Below, one piece after another: positions 20,491-36,048 of a stretch of 64,000 bases of DNA. The notes beneath the pieces are model-generated. The model ran no database searches and was not told the origin of the DNA. It was given only the letters and a program-made list of their open reading frames with translations. The position numbers and the translations under genes are program-made. Each line of letters begins with the position of its first letter. The stretch's first letter is position 1. Source of the DNA: Roseivivax halodurans JCM 10272 (GTDB lineage: Bacteria; Pseudomonadota; Alphaproteobacteria; Rhodobacterales; Rhodobacteraceae). Location of the stretch: the NCBI RefSeq assembly GCF_000521785.1, contig NZ_JALZ01000006.1:1-64000 (forward strand), in the 5' to 3' direction.

Positions 20491-21270
20491 TCAGATGGAC
20501 CGCTCGACCATCGTTTTCTTGATCTGCGCAATCGCCTTGGCCGGGTTGAGGCCCTTGGGGCAGGTCTTGGCGCAGTTCATGATGGTGTGGCAGCGGTAGA
20601 GCTTGAACGGATCCTCGAGATCGTCCAGCCGCTCGCCCGTCGCCTCGTCGCGGCTGTCGATGATCCAGCGATAGGCGTGCAGAAGCGCGGCGGGCCCGAG
20701 GAAGCGGTCGCTGTTCCACCAGTAGGACGGGCATGCGGTCGAGCAACAGGCGCACATCACGCATTCGTAGAGGCCGTCGAGCTTCTCGCGATCCTCGATC
20801 GACTGGCGCCATTCCTTCGCCGGATTTGGACTCTTCGTCTCGAGCCAGGGATGGATCGAGGCGTGCTGCGCGTAGAAATGCGTGAGATCCGGGATCAGGT
20901 CCTTCACCACCGGCATGTGCGGCAGCGGGTAGATCTTCACGTCACCCTTCACCTCGTCCATGCCGTAGATGCAGGCGAGCGTGTTGATCCCGTCGATGTT
21001 CATCGCGCAAGACCCGCAGATCCCCTCTCGGCAGGACCGGCGGAAGGTCAGCGTCGGGTCGATCTTGGTCTTGATGTAGATCAGCGCGTCCAGGATCATC
21101 GGACCACAATCGTCGAGATCCACGAAATAGGTATCGACGCGCGGGTTCTCGCCATCGTCCGGCGACCAGCGATAGATCGAGAACTTGCGCAGGGTGCCGC
21201 CGGTCTCGGGCTTGGGCCACGTCTTGCCGGTGCGCATCTGGGAGTTCTTGGGCAGGGTCAGTTGGACCAT
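20491..21270 (-). CDS. sdhB: succinate dehydrogenase iron-sulfur subunit
   Basis: A 259-aa subunit of complex II that relays electrons from FAD to ubiquinone. The [2Fe-2S] ligands are in [13 protein letters not shown], the [4Fe-4S] ligands in [16 protein letters not shown], and the [3Fe-4S] ligands in [24 protein letters not shown] precedes the ATG. It is the last gene of sdhC-sdhD-sdhA-lipoprotein-sdhB and is followed by a terminator. Confidence 0.98.
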
Positions 21271-21373: not shown

Positions 21374-21691
21374 TCATATCGCCCCCGCCGCGCGCGCGTA
21401 TTCGGTGGCGAGGCAGCGCACGCTCTCGGGCTTCTGCACCACCTCGGAGACGATCTGCGCCGACGATTCCGTCGGGCCGCCAATCGAATCCGCGCCGAGC
21501 GCGTAGATCTGCTGGGCGCTCGCATTGTCGATCACGCAGTTGATCGCTGGTTCGAGCGGCAGGTTCGGGTAGCGCTCGAGCACCACCCGGTTGACCGTCG
21601 AGCGCGCGGCATTCCGCGCGATCTGGTCCTGCGTTTGCGGCGTGCAGGCCGCGCCGAGGCCGAGGATCGCGAGGAGTGCAAGCATCCGCAT
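21374..21691 (-). CDS. putative lipoprotein encoded inside the sdh operon
   Basis: A 105-aa protein with an N-terminal hydrophobic segment and lipobox-like LGLGAAC (Cys16; the -3 residue is Gly rather than Leu, so lipidation is probable, not certain). A helical mature domain contains a Cys pair (NCVIDNAS and VRCLATEYAR). Its ATG overlaps the sdhA stop (TGATG), implying translational coupling to sdhA. sdhB follows after 103 nt. I know no function. The position suggests a role linked to complex II or just co-expression. Confidence 0.75.
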   Translation of the reverse strand: MRMLALLAILGLGAACTPQTQDQIARNAARSTVNRVVLERYPNLPLEPAINCVIDNASAQQIYALGADSIGGPTESSAQIVSEVVQKPESVRCLATEYARAAGAI

Positions 21692-23496
21692 CAGAAGGTC
21701 CGCGCCTTCGGGGCGATCCGCTTGAGCTCGATGCCGCCCTTGTCTTCCTGCGTGAGCGGATCCTCGATCACCGGACGATAGGTCAGCTGCACCTCCGCGC
21801 CGTGCACGCGGCTGATCGTGTGGACCCGCCAGTTCTCGTCGTCGCGGTCGCCGAAATCCTCGTGCGCATGGGCGCCACGGCTCTCCTTGCGCGCCTCGGC
21901 CGACACGATGGTCGTGAGCGCATTCGGCATGAGGTTGGTGAGCTCGAGCGTCTCCATGAGGTCGGTGTTCCACACGAGGCTGCGGTCGGTCACCTCGAGA
22001 TCGTCGAGCTTGCCGGCGATCGCCTTCATCTTCTCGCAGCCCGAAGACAGCGTCTCGGAGGTGCGGAAGACGGCGGCGTCCTCCTGCATGGTCTTCTGCA
22101 TCTCGGCGCGCAGTTCCGCCGTGGGCGTGCCGCCCTTGGCGTGGCGGATGCCGTCGAACCGGTCGAGCGCCTTGTCGATCTGTGCGACGTTGATGTCGCG
22201 CGGCGAGGCCGCCCGGTCCACCGTCTTGCCCGCGCGGATCGCCGCGGCGCGGCCGAAGACCACGAGGTCGATCAGCGAGTTCGACCCGAGGCGGTTCGCC
22301 CCGTGCACCGATGCGCAGCCCGCCTCGCCCACGGCCATGAGCCCCGGCACGATGGCGTTCGGATCGTCCTCGGTCGGGTTCAGCACCTCGCCCCAGTAGT
22401 TCGTCGGAATGCCGCCCATGTTGTAGTGGACCGTCGGGATGACCGGGATCGGCTCCTTGGTGACGTCGACGCCCGCGAAGATCCGCGCGCTCTCGGAGAT
22501 GCCCGGCAGACGCAGCTGCAGCGCCTCCTTCGGCAGGTGCGAGAGGTTGAGGTGGATATGGTCGCCGTTCGGACCGACGCCCCGCCCCTCGCGGATCTCC
22601 ATAGTCATCGAGCGCGAGACGTAGTCGCGCGGCGCGAGGTCCTTGTAGGTGGGCGCGTAGCGCTCCATGAACCGCTCGCCCTCGGAGTTGGTGAGGTAGC
22701 CGCCCTCGCCGCGCGCGCCTTCCGTGATGAGGCAGCCCGCGCCGTAGATGCCGGTCGGGTGGAACTGCACGAACTCCATGTCCTGAAGCGGCAGACCCGC
22801 GCGCGCAACCATGCCGCCACCGTCGCCGGTGCAGGTATGCGCCGAGGTCGCAGAGAAATAGGCGCGTCCGTAGCCGCCGGTCGCCAGCACAACGGTCTTG
22901 GCGTTGAAGACATGGATCGTGCCATCGTCGAGCTTCCAGCACACCACGCCCTCGCAGGCGCCGTCCTCACCCATGATGAGGTCGATGGCGAAATACTCGA
23001 TGTAGAACTCGGCGTTGTGCTTGAGCGACTGGCCGTAGAGCGTGTGCAGGATCGCGTGGCCGGTCCGGTCCGCCGCTGCGCAGGTGCGCTGCACCGGGGG
23101 GCCCTCGCCGAATTCGGTCGTGTGCCCGCCGAAGGGCCGCTGGTAGATCTTGCCCTCCTCGGTCCGGCTGAACGGCACACCGTAATGCTCGAGCTCGTAG
23201 ACCGCCTCGGGCGCGTGCCGCGCGAGATATTCCATCGCGTCGGTGTCGCCGAGCCAGTCCGACCCCTTCACGGTGTCGTACATGTGCCACTGCCAGTGGT
23301 CGGGCCCCATGTTCGACAGCGACGCGGCGATGCCGCCCTGCGCCGCCACGGTGTGCGAGCGGGTCGGGAAGACCTTGGTGACGCAGGCGGTCTTGAGCCC
23401 CTGCTCGGCCATGCCGAGCGTCGCGCGGAGGCCCGAGCCGCCGGCGCCCACGACCACGACGTCGTAGTCGTGAACTTCGTATTCGTATGCAGCCAT
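21691..23496 (-). CDS. sdhA: succinate dehydrogenase flavoprotein subunit
   Basis: A 601-aa catalytic subunit oxidising succinate to fumarate. The FAD fold is [20 protein letters not shown]. The covalent FAD histidine is in [10 protein letters not shown]. Substrate and active-site segments are [31 protein letters not shown] and [18 protein letters not shown]. Ribosome site GGAGCG is 9 nt upstream. It sits 19 nt after sdhD and overlaps the following lipoprotein gene by one base. Confidence 0.98.
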
Positions 23497-23515: not shown

Positions 23516-23887
23516 TCAGAGGGCCAGGCGCGCGATGGCGAAGATCGCGACGACCGAGGCGCCCCAGCAGAGGCAGGTCATGCCGATGATCAGGACTTTC
23601 TCCCAGAGACCGTGGACATAGTCCTCGATCAGCGTCTGGAAGCCGTCGGCAAAGTGCAGGAAGGAGACCGTCAGCGTCAGCACGGCGATGATCGCCGGGA
23701 ACGGACGCGACAGGTGATCGGTGACGCCGGCATAATCCTTGCCGATGGCGGGTGCCACGGCGATGAGGAAAAGCGGGATCAGCACGAGCAGCGCGACGGA
23801 TTGCACCTTCATGCGCCAGAAATGCTGCGTGCCGGACTTGGCGCTGCCCCAGCGGTTCGCCCGCTTGCGGTCGGTGATGTAACTCAT
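23516..23887 (-). CDS. sdhD: succinate dehydrogenase membrane anchor subunit
   Basis: A 123-aa protein with three predicted membrane helices (VALLVLIPLFLIAV; AIIAVLTLTVSFLHFADGF; VLIIGMTCLCWGASVVAIFAI). The HFADGFQTLIEDYVHG segment contains the conserved His, Asp and Tyr of the heme/quinone region. The N-terminus (KRANRWGSAKSGTQHFWRMK) is typical of the alphaproteobacterial SdhD. It is 12 nt after sdhC. Confidence 0.95.
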   Translation of the reverse strand: MSYITDRKRANRWGSAKSGTQHFWRMKVQSVALLVLIPLFLIAVAPAIGKDYAGVTDHLSRPFPAIIAVLTLTVSFLHFADGFQTLIEDYVHGLWEKVLIIGMTCLCWGASVVAIFAIARLAL

Positions 23888-23899
23888 GTCGTCTCTCCC

Positions 23900-24292
23900 T
23901 CAGACCGCGAACAGGATGATCAGCGTCAGCAGCCACAGCACGAAGGATCCGCCGACCACCCCGTAGCCGAGCTTGTAGGCGGTATCGAGATCGAGCCCCA
24001 CGCCGGAATCCCAGATCAGGTGCCGCACGCCCGCAAGGAAGTGGTACCACAGCGCCCAGAGCGACAGGGCGAGGATCAGGATGCCGAACCAGCTGGTGAC
24101 GAAGCCGTCCGCCACCGCGAAGGCATCCGGTCCCGTCGCCGCCGCGATCAGCCACCACACGATCATCAGCATCGCCACGATGAGCGCGTTTCCGGTGATC
24201 CGCGTGAGGATCGAGGTGATCGACGTCAGCTGAGGGCGATAGACCTGGAGGTGGGGTGAGAGCGGCCGCGAGCCGCGGTTCACGTCTGCCAT
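23900..24292 (-). CDS. sdhC: succinate dehydrogenase cytochrome b556 subunit
   Basis: A 130-aa three-helix subunit that opens the operon. Family signatures are RPLSPHLQVYRPQLTSITSI and RITG at the N-terminus, and the heme-ligand region HFLAGVRHLIWDSG. AAGGAT lies 7 nt before the ATG (MADVNRGS). The leader is at least 147 nt long if the paired GTGATCAC boxes at 24411-24439 are part of the promoter. Confidence 0.96.
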   Translation of the reverse strand: MADVNRGSRPLSPHLQVYRPQLTSITSILTRITGNALIVAMLMIVWWLIAAATGPDAFAVADGFVTSWFGILILALSLWALWYHFLAGVRHLIWDSGVGLDLDTAYKLGYGVVGGSFVLWLLTLIILFAV

Positions 24293-24410
24293 GGGTGCAT
24301 CCTTTCGTGTCCCTTGCCCCGGGGTTCTAATGGTTTTTGCCGTGGTGTCACGTCGCGACCGTTTGGCGGGGCGCGGTTTTTTGGCGCAACGCCGGGTCTC
24401 CGGCAATGTC

Positions 24411-24439
24411 GTGATCACAGCCGCCGGAAGCGTGATCAC
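24411..24439 (-). promoter_or_regulatory. paired GTGATCAC operator upstream of sdhC
   Basis: Two perfect GTGATCAC palindromes (24411-24418 and 24432-24439) have centres 21 bp apart, two helical turns, and end 119 bp before the sdhC ATG. The same architecture occurs upstream of sucC at 30049-30077. Confidence 0.65.
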
Positions 24440-30048: not shown

Positions 30049-30080
30049 GTGATCACAGCCTGCAAACCTGTGGTCACAAA
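30046..30080 (+). promoter_or_regulatory. paired GTGATCAC/GTGGTCAC operator upstream of sucC
   Basis: GTGATCAC at 30049-30056 and GTGGTCAC at 30070-30077 are 21 bp apart centre to centre and end 112 bp before the sucC ATG. With flanks they form a 13-bp imperfect inverted repeat (TTTGTGATCACAG and CTGTGGTCACAAA, one mismatch). The architecture matches the sdhC leader. Confidence 0.65.
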
Positions 30081-30189: not shown

Positions 30190-31383
30190 ATGAACATCCA
30201 CGAATATCAGGCCAAGCAGCTTCTGCGCAGCTACGGCGCGCCGGTCTCGGACGGCCGTGTCGTCCTCCGCGCCGAGGAGGCCAAGACGGCCGCCGGCGGT
30301 CTCGACGGCCCGCTCTGGGTCGTGAAGGCACAGATCCACGCAGGCGGCCGCGGCAAGGGGTCGTTCAAGGAAGCCGATGCCGGCGAGAAGGGCGGCGTCC
30401 GCCTCGCCAAGTCCGTCGAGGAGGCGGCCGAGGAAGCCAAGAAGATGCTGGGCAAGACGCTGGTCACGCACCAGACCGGCCCGGCAGGCAAGCAGGTCAA
30501 CCGCATCTACATCGAGGAAGGCTCGGACATCGAGACCGAGCTCTACCTCGCGCTCCTCGTCGACCGCGTCACCAGCCGCGTCTCCTTCGTCTGCTCCACC
30601 GAGGGCGGCATGGACATCGAGGAGGTCGCGGCCAGCACCCCCGAGAAGATCCTGTCCTTCAGCGTCGATCCCGCGACCGGCTACCAGGCCTTCCACGGTC
30701 GCCGCATCGCCTTCGCGCTCGGCCTCGAGGGCGCGCAGGTCAAGCAATGCGTCAAGCTGATGGGCCAACTCTACACCGCGTTCATCGAGCGCGACATGGA
30801 GATGCTCGAGATCAACCCGCTGATCGTGACCGACAAGGGCGATCTCAAGGTACTCGACGCCAAGCTCAGCTTCGACGGCAACGCGCTCTACCGCCAGTCG
30901 GACGTCGCCGAGCTGCGCGACGAGACCGAGGAGGACCCGAAGGAACTCCAGGCGTCCAAGTACGACCTCAACTACATCGCGCTCGACGGCGAGATCGGCT
31001 GCATGGTGAACGGCGCGGGCCTCGCCATGGCGACGATGGACATCATCAAGCTCAACGGTGCGGAGCCGGCGAACTTCCTCGATGTCGGCGGCGGCGCCAC
31101 CAAGGAGAAGGTCACCGAGGCGTTCAAGATCATCACGTCCGACAAGAACGTGAAGGGCATCCTCGTGAACATCTTCGGCGGCATCATGCGCTGCGACGTC
31201 ATCGCCGAGGGCGTGATCGCCGCGGTGAAGGAAGTGGGCCTTCAGGTTCCGCTGGTGGTGCGCCTCGAGGGCACCAATGTCGAGCAGGGCAAGAAGCTCA
31301 TCAACGAGAGTGGCCTCAACGTGATCGCGGCGGACGACCTCAAGGACGGCGCGCAGAAGATCGTGGCCGAGGTGAAGGGCTGA
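30190..31383 (+). CDS. sucC: succinyl-CoA synthetase beta subunit (ADP-forming)
   Basis: A 397-aa ATP-grasp subunit of the TCA enzyme that makes ATP from succinyl-CoA. It opens [23 protein letters not shown]-grasp elements are [14 protein letters not shown] and [14 protein letters not shown]. The CoA-ligase domain has [17 protein letters not shown] and [17 protein letters not shown] lies 6 nt before the ATG. A small gene separates it from sucD. Confidence 0.98.
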
Positions 31384-32039: not shown

Positions 32040-32927
32040 ATGGCAATTCTTGTCGACGCGAATACCAAGGTGATCTGCCAGGGCCTGACCGGCAGCCAGG
32101 GGACATTCCACACCGAACAGGCGATCGCCTACGGCACCAAGATGGTCGGCGGCGTAACCCCCGGCAAAGGCGGTCAGACCCATCTCGACCTGCCGGTCTT
32201 CAACTCCGTGCATGAGGCCAAGGCCAAGACCGAGGCGAACGCCTCGGTGATCTACGTGCCGCCGCCCTTTGCCGCCGACTCGATCTGCGAGGCGATCGAC
32301 GCCGAGATGGAGCTGATCGTCTGCATCACGGAGGGCATCCCCGTGCTCGACATGATGAAGGTCAAGCGTGCGCTTGAAGGCTCGAAGTCGACGCTGATCG
32401 GCCCCAACTGCCCCGGCGTGATCACGCCCGACGCGTGCAAGATCGGCATCATGCCCGGTCACATCCACAAGCGCGGCAAGGTCGGGGTGGTCTCGCGCTC
32501 GGGAACGCTTACCTACGAGGCCGTGAAGCAGACCACCGATGTCGGTCTCGGCCAGTCGACCTGCGTCGGCATCGGCGGTGACCCGATCAAGGGGACGGAG
32601 CATCTCGACGTGCTGAAATGGTTCCTCGACGACCCCGAGACCGAGGCGATCATCATGATCGGCGAAATCGGCGGCTCGGCGGAAGAGGACGCGGCGCAGT
32701 TCCTCGCCGACGAGAAGAAGAAGGGCCGCTGGAAGCCGACCGCCGGCTTCATCGCCGGCCGCACGGCGCCTCCGGGCCGCCGCATGGGCCACGCGGGCGC
32801 GATCGTCGCCGGCGGCAAGGGCGGCGCCGAGGACAAGATCGAAGCCATGAACTCGGCCGGCATCGTCGTGGCGGACAGCCCCGCGACGCTGGGCGAGGCC
32901 GTGCTCGCGGCGATCGAGAAGGGCTGA
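32040..32927 (+). CDS. sucD: succinyl-CoA synthetase alpha subunit
   Basis: A 295-aa subunit carrying the phosphohistidine. It starts [20 protein letters not shown], with the CoA-binding loop [17 protein letters not shown] and the active His in [14 protein letters not shown] near residue 247. AAGGATACG precedes the ATG. sucA follows after 145 nt. Confidence 0.98.
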
Positions 32928-33072: not shown

Positions 33073-36048
33073 ATGACCGACCAATCTCCGAATGACCTCT
33101 TCCACGCCTCGTCCTTCATGCAGGGGGCGAATGCCGATTACCTCGAGCAGATGTACGCCCGGTATGCGAACGACCCCAATGCGGTCGACGAGGCATGGCA
33201 GGCCTTCTTCCAGGGCCTCGGCGACGACGAGATTGCGGTCAAGAAGGAGGCCGCGGGCCCGTCCTGGGCGCGGCGCGACTGGCCGCAGCAGCCGCAGGAC
33301 GAGATCACCTCGGCGCTGACCGGCGACTGGCCGATGCCGATGATGCCCGCCGAGGCCAAGGGCGCGGCGCAGAAGATCGAGGCGAAGGCCGAAGAGAAGG
33401 GCGTCAAGCTCACCGACGACGAGGTCCAGCGGGCCGTGCTCGACTCGATCCGGGCGCTGATGATCATCCGCGCCTACCGGATCCGCGGCCATCTCGACGC
33501 GCAGCTCGACCCGCTCGGCATGCGCAACGTCGACCAGGAGCATCCCGAGCTCGATCCGAAGTCCTACGGCTTCACCGAGCGCGACATGGACCGGCCGATC
33601 TTCATCGACAACGTGCTGGGGCTCGAGATCGCCTCGCTGCGCGAGATCGTCGGCGTGCTCAAGCGCACCTATTGCGGCACCTTCGCGCTCCAGTACATGC
33701 ACATCTCCGACCCCGAGCAATCGGCCTGGCTCAAGGAGCGGATCGAGGGCTACGGCAAGGAGGTGAAGTTCACCCGCGAGGGCCGCAAGGCGATCCTCAA
33801 CAAGATGGTCGAGGCCGAGGGCTTCGAGAAGTTCCTGCACGTCAAGTACACCGGCACCAAGCGCTTCGGCCTCGACGGCGGCGAGAGCCTGATCCCCGCG
33901 ATGGAGCAGATCATCAAGCGCGGCGGCAATCTCGGCCTCAAGGAGATCGTCGTCGGCATGCCGCACCGCGGACGCCTTTCGGTGCTGGCCAACGTGATGG
34001 GAAAGCCCTACCGCGCGATCTTCAACGAGTTCCAGGGCGGCAGCTTCAAGCCCGACGACGTCGACGGCTCGGGCGACGTGAAGTACCACCTCGGCGCCTC
34101 GAACGACCGCGAATTCGACGGCAACACCGTGCACCTGTCGCTGACCGCGAACCCCTCGCATCTCGAGGCGGTGAACCCGGTCGTCCTCGGCAAGGTCCGC
34201 GCCAAGCAGGACCAGTACAAGGACGCGACCCGCACGCAGGTCCTGCCGATCCTGCTGCACGGCGACGCGGCCTTCGCGGGCCAGGGCGTCGTGGCCGAAT
34301 GCTTCGCGCTCTCGGGACTGCGCGGCCACCGCACCGGCGGCACGATCCATCTCGTGGTGAACAACCAGATCGGCTTCACCACCGCCCCGCACTTCTCGCG
34401 CTCCTCGCCCTACCCGACGGACAACGCGCTGGTGGTCGAGGCGCCGATCTTCCACGTCAACGGCGACGACCCCGAGGCGGTGGTGCATGCCGCCAAGGTC
34501 GCGACCGAGTTCCGCCAGAAATTCGGCAAGGACGTGGTCATCGACATCTTCTGCTACCGCCGGTTCGGTCACAACGAGGGCGACGAGCCCATGTTCACCA
34601 ACCCGCTGATGTACAAGCAGATCAAGGGTCACAAGACGACCCTGACGCTCTACACCGAGCGGCTGGTGAAGGACGGCCTCATCCCAGAAGGCGAGATCGA
34701 GGACATGAAGGCCTCGTTCCAGTCCCACCTCAACGAGGAATTCGAGGCCGGCAAGAACTACAAGCCGAACCGAGCCGACTGGCTCGACGGGCGCTGGTCG
34801 CATCTCGACCGGCAGAAGGAGGGCAAGTACCAGCGCGGCAAGACCTCCATCAAGAAGAAGACGATGGAGGCGATCGGCAGCGCCATCTCGAACGCGCCGG
34901 ACGGCTTCCCGCTCCACCGCACGGTCGGCCGCCTTCTCGACAACCGCAAGCAGATGTTCGAGACCGGCAAGGGCTTCGACTGGGCAACCGCCGAGGCGCT
35001 CGCCTTCGGCTCGCTTCTGACCGAGGGTTATCCGGTGCGCCTCTCGGGCCAAGACTCGACCCGCGGCACCTTCTCGCAGCGCCACTCGGCCTTCATCGAT
35101 CAGGAGACGGAGGAGCGCTACTACCCGCTCAACCACATCCGTGACGGACAGGCGCGCTACGAGGCGATCGACAGCGCGCTCTCGGAATACGCGGTGCTCG
35201 GGTTCGAATACGGCTACTCCCTCGCCGAGCCGAACGCGCTGACGGTCTGGGAGGCGCAGTTCGGCGACTTCGCCAACGGCGCGCAGATCATGTTCGACCA
35301 GTTCATCTCGTCCGGCGAATCCAAGTGGCTGCGCATGTCGGGCCTCGTCTGCATGCTGCCCCACGGCTACGAGGGCCAGGGCCCCGAGCATTCCTCGGCC
35401 CGCCTCGAGCGCTGGCTGCAGCTCTGCGGTCAGGACAACTGGATCGTCGCGAACTGCTCGACCCCGGCGAACCTCTTCCACATCCTGCGCCGCCAGCTGC
35501 ACCGCTCCTACCGCAAGCCGCTGATGCTGATGACCCCGAAATCGCTCCTGCGTCACAAGCTCTGCGTCTCGGATGCCGAGATGTTCCTCGAGGGCTCGTC
35601 CTTCCACCGCGTCCTCTGGGACGACGCGGACCACAAGGATTGGGAGCACGACCTCAAGCCCGACAACGAGATCAAGCGCGTCGTGATGTGCTCGGGCAAG
35701 GTCTACTACGACCTGCTCGAGGAGCGCGACAAGCGGGGCATCGACGACGTCTACCTGATCCGCGTCGAGCAGTTCTATCCGTTCCCCGCGGTCTCCGCGG
35801 TCAAGGAGCTCGAACGCTTCAAGCAGGCCGAGGTGATCTGGTGCCAGGAAGAGCCCAAGAACCAGGGCGCCTGGACGTTCATCGAACCCAACATCGAATG
35901 GGTGCTCAACCGCATCGAGGCCGATCATCGACGGCCCCGCTATGTCGGTCGCGCCACCTCGGCCTCGCCCGCCACGGGCCTGGCCTCGACCCACAAAGCC
36001 CAGCAAGAGGCGCTCGTCGACGAAGCGCTGACGATCGAAGGAAAGTGA
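33073..36048 (+). CDS. sucA: 2-oxoglutarate dehydrogenase E1 component
   Basis: A 991-aa thiamine-diphosphate decarboxylase that reductively succinylates the E2 lipoyl groups. The N-terminal E2-binding stretch is [20 protein letters not shown]. The core has [16 protein letters not shown], the TPP-region [37 protein letters not shown] and [16 protein letters not shown]. The C-terminal transketolase domain contains [20 protein letters not shown] chose ATG 33073 with GGAGA 8 nt upstream; an ATG 15 nt earlier is also in frame. sucB follows 4 nt later. Confidence 0.98.

Follow-up and report, generated by a model that had tools for sequence, protein, structure and literature searches.

The succinate dehydrogenase and succinyl-CoA synthetase operons of Roseivivax halodurans JCM 10272 are each preceded by two short palindromic boxes set 21 bp apart, and both elements are very probably operators for AkgR, the GntR/FCD regulator controlling the sdh and suc operons in the Rhodobacteraceae, serving as paired-dimer activator sites. 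The regulon and the regulator are already known from a relative, and since the boxes match the reported AkgR binding site, most of what is seen here is established biology; the unusual point is how strict the two-box layout is, and no new regulator is revealed. For a family of abundant bacteria, a central switch of the TCA cycle thereby gains an operator that is sharply defined and easy to test, and the likely range of the AkgR operator, previously R. sphaeroides, now takes in most of the 198 genera sampled. No description of the two-turn pairing, or of its joint absence with the regulator, was found in the available parts of the literature on AkgR and GntR operators; the original AkgR study may contain one.

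The window analysed is a stretch of 64,000 nucleotides (contig NZ_JALZ01000006.1, positions 1 to 64,000 of the forward strand), in which reading of the sequence and a motif scan located the following boxes:

24411..24418, no strand assigned: AkgR-type box GTGATCAC, sdhC-proximal copy
24432..24439, no strand assigned: AkgR-type box GTGATCAC, sdhC-distal copy, 21 bp from the proximal one
30049..30056, no strand assigned: AkgR-type box GTGATCAC, sucC-distal copy
30070..30077, plus strand: sucC-proximal AkgR-type box, GTGGTCAC, which has one mismatch and stands 21 bp from its distal partner

The sdhC leader reads GTGATCAC-N13-GTGATCAC at 24411-24439 and the sucC leader GTGATCAC-N13-GTGGTCAC at 30049-30077, the fourth box being the palindrome but for one base and the other three perfect. 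The box starts are 21 bp apart in both leaders, and the gap from pair to ATG is 118 bp for sdhC (ATG at 24292, minus strand) and 112 bp for sucC (ATG at 30190), so that the two spaced boxes before each gene stand as the initial annotation had described them. Many pairs at the same spacing elsewhere would have counted against a shared operator, yet the whole genome (4,490,619 bases in 149 contigs) holds the pair at the sdhC and sucC leaders only, and none appeared in 100 shuffles of the window. The remaining exact boxes of the window (32418, which is inside sucD, 45614 and 47923) are single, as are 92 GTGATCAC sites genome-wide. The extended motif TGTGATCAC gives 11 strand-matches in this genome, among them sdhC, sucC and the regulator gene discussed below, and six further places lie in coding sequence or at its end, as judged by open frames. 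Recurrence of the pair by chance or through coding sequence was ruled out by the two-place genome scan together with the spacing controls.

The genes around the two operators are as follows:

23900..24292, minus strand: sdhC, succinate dehydrogenase membrane subunit (Sdh_cyt), from Pfam
23516..23887, minus strand: putative sdhD, from its position and tblastn matches in relatives
21691..23496, minus strand: sdhA, flavoprotein subunit, from Pfam
20491..21270, minus strand: sdhB, iron-sulfur subunit, from Pfam
30190..31383, plus strand: sucC, succinyl-CoA synthetase beta chain, from Pfam
32040..32927, plus strand: sucD, succinyl-CoA synthetase alpha chain, from Pfam
33073..36048, plus strand: putative sucA, 2-oxoglutarate dehydrogenase E1, its start read from the sequence, from N-terminal likeness

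Pfam support extends to SdhC, SdhA, SdhB, SucC, SucD and a malate-dehydrogenase-type protein, while the N-terminus of the putative SucA resembles the protein of a relative (locus L045) that matches 2-oxogl_dehyd_N. Between the sdh and suc operons lie genes for a mesaconyl-CoA hydratase and an HpcH/HpaI-type lyase, both from Pfam.

The placement of the pair recurs in relatives. An SdhC or SucC match lies downstream at 28 of 30 pair loci, and in 40 larger regions, which were picked for holding a pair, 37 of the 77 pair positions immediately precede sdhC and 39 sucC (76 together), the last one being before sucA; the 77 positions include those of L244, which duplicates part of L217, and of L245, which is about the same as L214. 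In a set of leaders with duplicates merged, into which only those carrying a pair were taken, the gap from pair to ATG is 107-191 bp for sdhC (median 137, n=44) and 96-150 bp for sucC (median 109, n=46). GTGATCAC boxes before the sdh and suc operons, as expected for the AkgR regulon, are found both in the genome of the window and in relatives. The proposal that one regulator is common to sdh and suc is supported, as are the uniqueness of the pair in its genome and its conservation in relatives. As for the other two of the 30 loci, in one (L042:1501-1529) an extra pair lies 124 bp before the fumarase C gene, fumC, a further step of the TCA cycle, and in the other (L045:1501-1529, genome G177) the pair precedes sucA, with no sucC in the adjoining stretch examined.

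The survey of the family covered 198 Rhodobacteraceae genomes, one per genus, with GTGRTCAC occurring twice at 21 bp as the pattern. Such a scan of relatives had been proposed for GTGRTCAC-N13-GTGRTCAC, and the pair proved to be kept in 164 of the 198 genomes, most often twice per genome, with no match to the reversed control pattern in any of them; when a spacing of 20 bp is also allowed, the count rises to 174. The spacing controls used GTGATCAC without the R and were slightly stricter than the 21-bp family scan. The 31 spacings of 22-52 bp together yielded 39 sites in 35 of the 198 genomes, with at most five at any one spacing, and the spacings of 8-20 bp yielded 46 sites in 37 genomes, 32 of these at 20 bp, in 29 genomes. 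Because other spacings are rare in these controls, the box spacing is taken to be 20 or 21 bp, i.e., two helical turns, and the strict two-turn spacing that had been proposed is supported. Three GTGATCAC boxes at 21-bp steps precede sucC in Tabrizicola aquatica (L223:1545-1594, genome G589), and similar three-box arrays appear, from the matched strings alone, in genomes G135 and G191; arrays of this kind would fit repeated dimers.

We take AkgR to be RSP_0981, and the original AkgR study is said to have made this identification and to have reported direct activation of TCA-cycle genes. RSP_0981, a GntR protein, is predicted at sucCD (RSP_0967-6), sdh (RSP_0974-6) and 2-oxoglutarate dehydrogenase (RSP_0965-62) in the available part of PMC4344238, and GTGATCAC is given among the sites of AkgR of R. 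sphaeroides, there termed a transcriptional activator, in the available part of PMC6365646. The initial annotation's view that this site belongs to no alphaproteobacterial regulator described so far is therefore not supported, as the box has been reported for AkgR and RSP_0981 has been predicted at the same operons.

The genome of R. halodurans yields 24 GntR matches, and its other GntR proteins were rejected as binders, as an exact box immediately preceding the gene start is found at only one of the 24 loci, L021; the check considered exact boxes within flanks of about 1.5 kb, some of which end at contig ends. In a second locus (L025), a weak GntR match, a box lies about 600 bp downstream of the domain. 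The regulator encoded at L021 (C6:179807-180478) has 224 aa, and the neighbours of its gene, as named by eye, are an accA-like gene on one side and a YgjP-like gene on the other; its protein, P0001, matches PF00392 with 45.5 bits and PF07729 with 64.5 bits, and belongs with the GntR/FCD regulators, in which FCD is the ligand domain. Its best solved relative by sequence is E. coli McbR (PDB 4p9f, E 5.5e-21). E. coli McbR differs from AkgR in its targets and its site.

There is a strong inferred case that P0001 is the ortholog of AkgR. All ten named genomes examined have an ortholog of the regulator (69-77% identity) together with at least one pair, and five of them have a second match at E <= 1e-30, 32-38% identical. 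The ortholog of Cereibacter johrii, a close relative of R. sphaeroides, is 75% identical to P0001; it lies 0.7 kb from sdhB and faces it, which fits the locus number of RSP_0981. The same arrangement, at 0.5-0.8 kb, is seen in C. johrii, in Luteovulum (Cereibacter) azotoformans and in the near-copy G051 (0.5 kb in L215, 0.8 kb in L245, which is nearly the same as C. johrii), while the distance is 2.3 kb in C. changlensis, and the regulator and the pairs are on different contigs in C. ovatus and R. capsulatus. The regulator is orthologous to the sdh-linked GntR gene of the R. sphaeroides group as represented by C. johrii, and it shares with AkgR the GntR/FCD architecture, the box GTGATCAC and the sdh and suc targets, but its gene is 156 kb from sdh, near the accA-like gene.

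The start codon of the regulator is preceded at 8 bp by a single GTGATCAC (L021:1734-1741, i.e., G000:C6:180487-180494), which suggests autoregulation. All 30 of the closest orthologs, a biased sample that leaves out L196 at a contig edge, have an exact box in the leader of the regulator gene itself, but it is present in just one of nine assessable named genomes; the eight without it include three Cereibacter/Luteovulum genomes.

The regulator ortholog and the 20/21-bp pair tend to be present or absent together. Among the 198 genomes 171 have both, six the ortholog alone, three the pair alone and 18 neither (Fisher p 1e-17, with kinship ignored). The cut-off for an ortholog, E 1e-50, was set after seeing the search results, with at most 14 candidates scored per genome, and G054 (5.8e-46), G033 (9.8e-55) and G122 (1.6e-60) lie near it. 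The pair occurs without a detected ortholog in G019, G096 and G114, the last of which is rated 100% complete in 320 contigs. The sucC leader was readable in 26 of the 34 genomes that have no 21-bp pair: ten of these come from genomes with an ortholog, and nine of them carry a perfect pair at a 20-bp spacing, the remaining one a one-mismatch 21-bp pair; the other 16, from genomes without an ortholog, contain no perfect box. On a SucC tree of 72 rows, on which G040, with its one-mismatch pair, was scored as having the operator, the regulator status changes nine times (at least four of them forced by well-supported branches) and the operator status eight times. Four well-supported independent contrasts were obtained, of which three agree and one is neutral, too few for significance (sign test p 0.25). 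Seven genomes that lack the regulator cluster on this tree, so that some of the absence may be ancestral and not due to loss.

The predicted promoter elements of the two leaders are:

24347..24351, minus strand: predicted sdhC -35 element (GTGAC), separated from the operator by 59 bp
24324..24329, minus strand: predicted -10 of the sdhC promoter, TAGAAC, the leader consensus being near TATnAA
30149..30154, plus strand: predicted sucC -10 element (TATACC), 71 bp downstream of the operator

GTGAC follows the pair by 55-62 bp in 35 of the 44 sdhC leaders, and by 58 or 59 bp in 30 of them; the offset was measured only within 55-62 bp, which bounds its spread, and nine leaders have no GTGAC there. 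The order in the sdhC leaders is GTGAC, 16 bp and a TATnAA-like element, which plausibly make up a sigma-70 promoter, and within the bounded search range the distance from GTGAC to the operator is steadier than that to the ATG. The best TATAAT-like match lies 70-72 bp from the pair in 19 of 46 sucC leaders and 79-82 bp from it in 30 of 44 sdhC leaders, in a scan that breaks ties towards 71 bp for sucC and 82 bp for sdhC. Subject to this tie-breaking, the promoter offsets of the two genes are about one helical turn apart, and the -10 offset would place the sucC pair about 48 bp upstream of its -35. By the predicted promoters the centre of the pair is near -98 (sucC) or -108 (sdhC), which fits an activator.

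Most likely one AkgR dimer occupies each 8-bp palindrome, and two dimers would then sit two helical turns apart on the same face of the DNA, some 48-59 bp upstream of the predicted -35, where they may aid RNA polymerase at weak promoters. That neighbouring dimers bind cooperatively is plausible from the 20/21-bp phasing and the few three-box arrays. The geometry of the operator and the account of AkgR in the available part of PMC6365646 both suggest that AkgR would activate its targets in R. halodurans. The strict 20- or 21-bp spacing, and the fact that the regulator gene and its site go missing together, open the two-dimer hypothesis to a direct test by altering the spacing. A broader proposal is put forward tentatively, as one that may well fail: that AkgR and its wider GntR/FCD relatives use a phased two- or three-box GTGATCAC operator, that activation needs cooperative dimers at a fixed, phased distance from the promoter, and that the arrangement arose in the Rhodobacteraceae and decayed where the regulator was lost.

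The boxes are unlikely to be the operator of a repressor instead of an activator site. Many GntR/FCD proteins are repressors, and in the closest orthologs the regulator gene has a single box near its start codon, as might that of an autorepressor. However, the pair is 58-59 bp upstream of the -35-like GTGAC in 30 of the 44 sdhC leaders, and about 48 bp upstream of the inferred -35 of sucC, rather than over the promoter, and AkgR has been termed an activator (PMC6365646, available part). Somewhat less probable again is that the pair is bound by some other factor, be it a GntR/FCD paralog or a transcription factor of another kind, and that the AkgR ortholog only travels with it. Related proteins may share the box, as PS417_07240 of Pseudomonas simiae, a GntR-like protein 32% identical to AkgR, is proposed to use the same palindrome GTGATCAC; it differs in that a single conserved palindrome is named for it, between -47 and -40 relative to its own gene, and in governing genes of deoxyribonate oxidation and not of the TCA cycle (PMC6365646, in the part available). 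In addition, an out-of-family genome carries the pair before a GntR/FCD gene whose product is just 31% identical to P0001, and three genomes have the pair without an AkgR ortholog. Against another binder speak the position of L021 as the sole GntR locus out of 24 with an exact box just upstream, and the 18 of 198 genomes, across several branches, from which ortholog and pair are missing together.

A role of CceR, of the LacI family, as the binder of these boxes is so improbable that it can practically be dismissed. CceR (RSP_1663) is, like NtrC, predicted at succinate dehydrogenase alongside RSP_0981 (PMC4344238, available part), and sdh belongs to the CceR regulon of R. sphaeroides, though not to that of Paracoccus denitrificans (PMC11323563, available part). 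The printed CceR motif, [A/G/T]GTT N6-8 AAC[A/C/T] (PMC4344238, same part), is nevertheless unlike GTGATCAC, and it is absent from the sdhC, sucC and mdh leaders of the window, where one looser N9 match occurs at 24376. The stretch from operator to promoter contains a GCGCCAA(AA) block (24370-24390), which is shared by 10 of the 44 sdhC leaders including that of the window; the block differs from the printed CceR motif and may be the site of a second regulator.

A scan across the class found the pair in 16 of 385 genomes, comprising four of five of the same family and 12 of 380 outside it, while the reversed control was matched in two of the 385. Ten of the 13 out-of-family sites are inside open frames of at least 200 aa, which is no proof of coding; two (L170 and L183) are unplaced, and one (L169) lies upstream of a GntR gene. 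In this last alphaproteobacterium GTGATCAC-N13-GTGATCAC, with the 21-bp spacing, is just upstream of the GntR/FCD gene with 31% identity to P0001 mentioned above, but the gene faces that of a TonB-dependent receptor and neither sdh nor suc. The pair is found between these two genes at L169:992-1020, and a near-box, ATGATCAC, can be made out by eye 20 bp further out.
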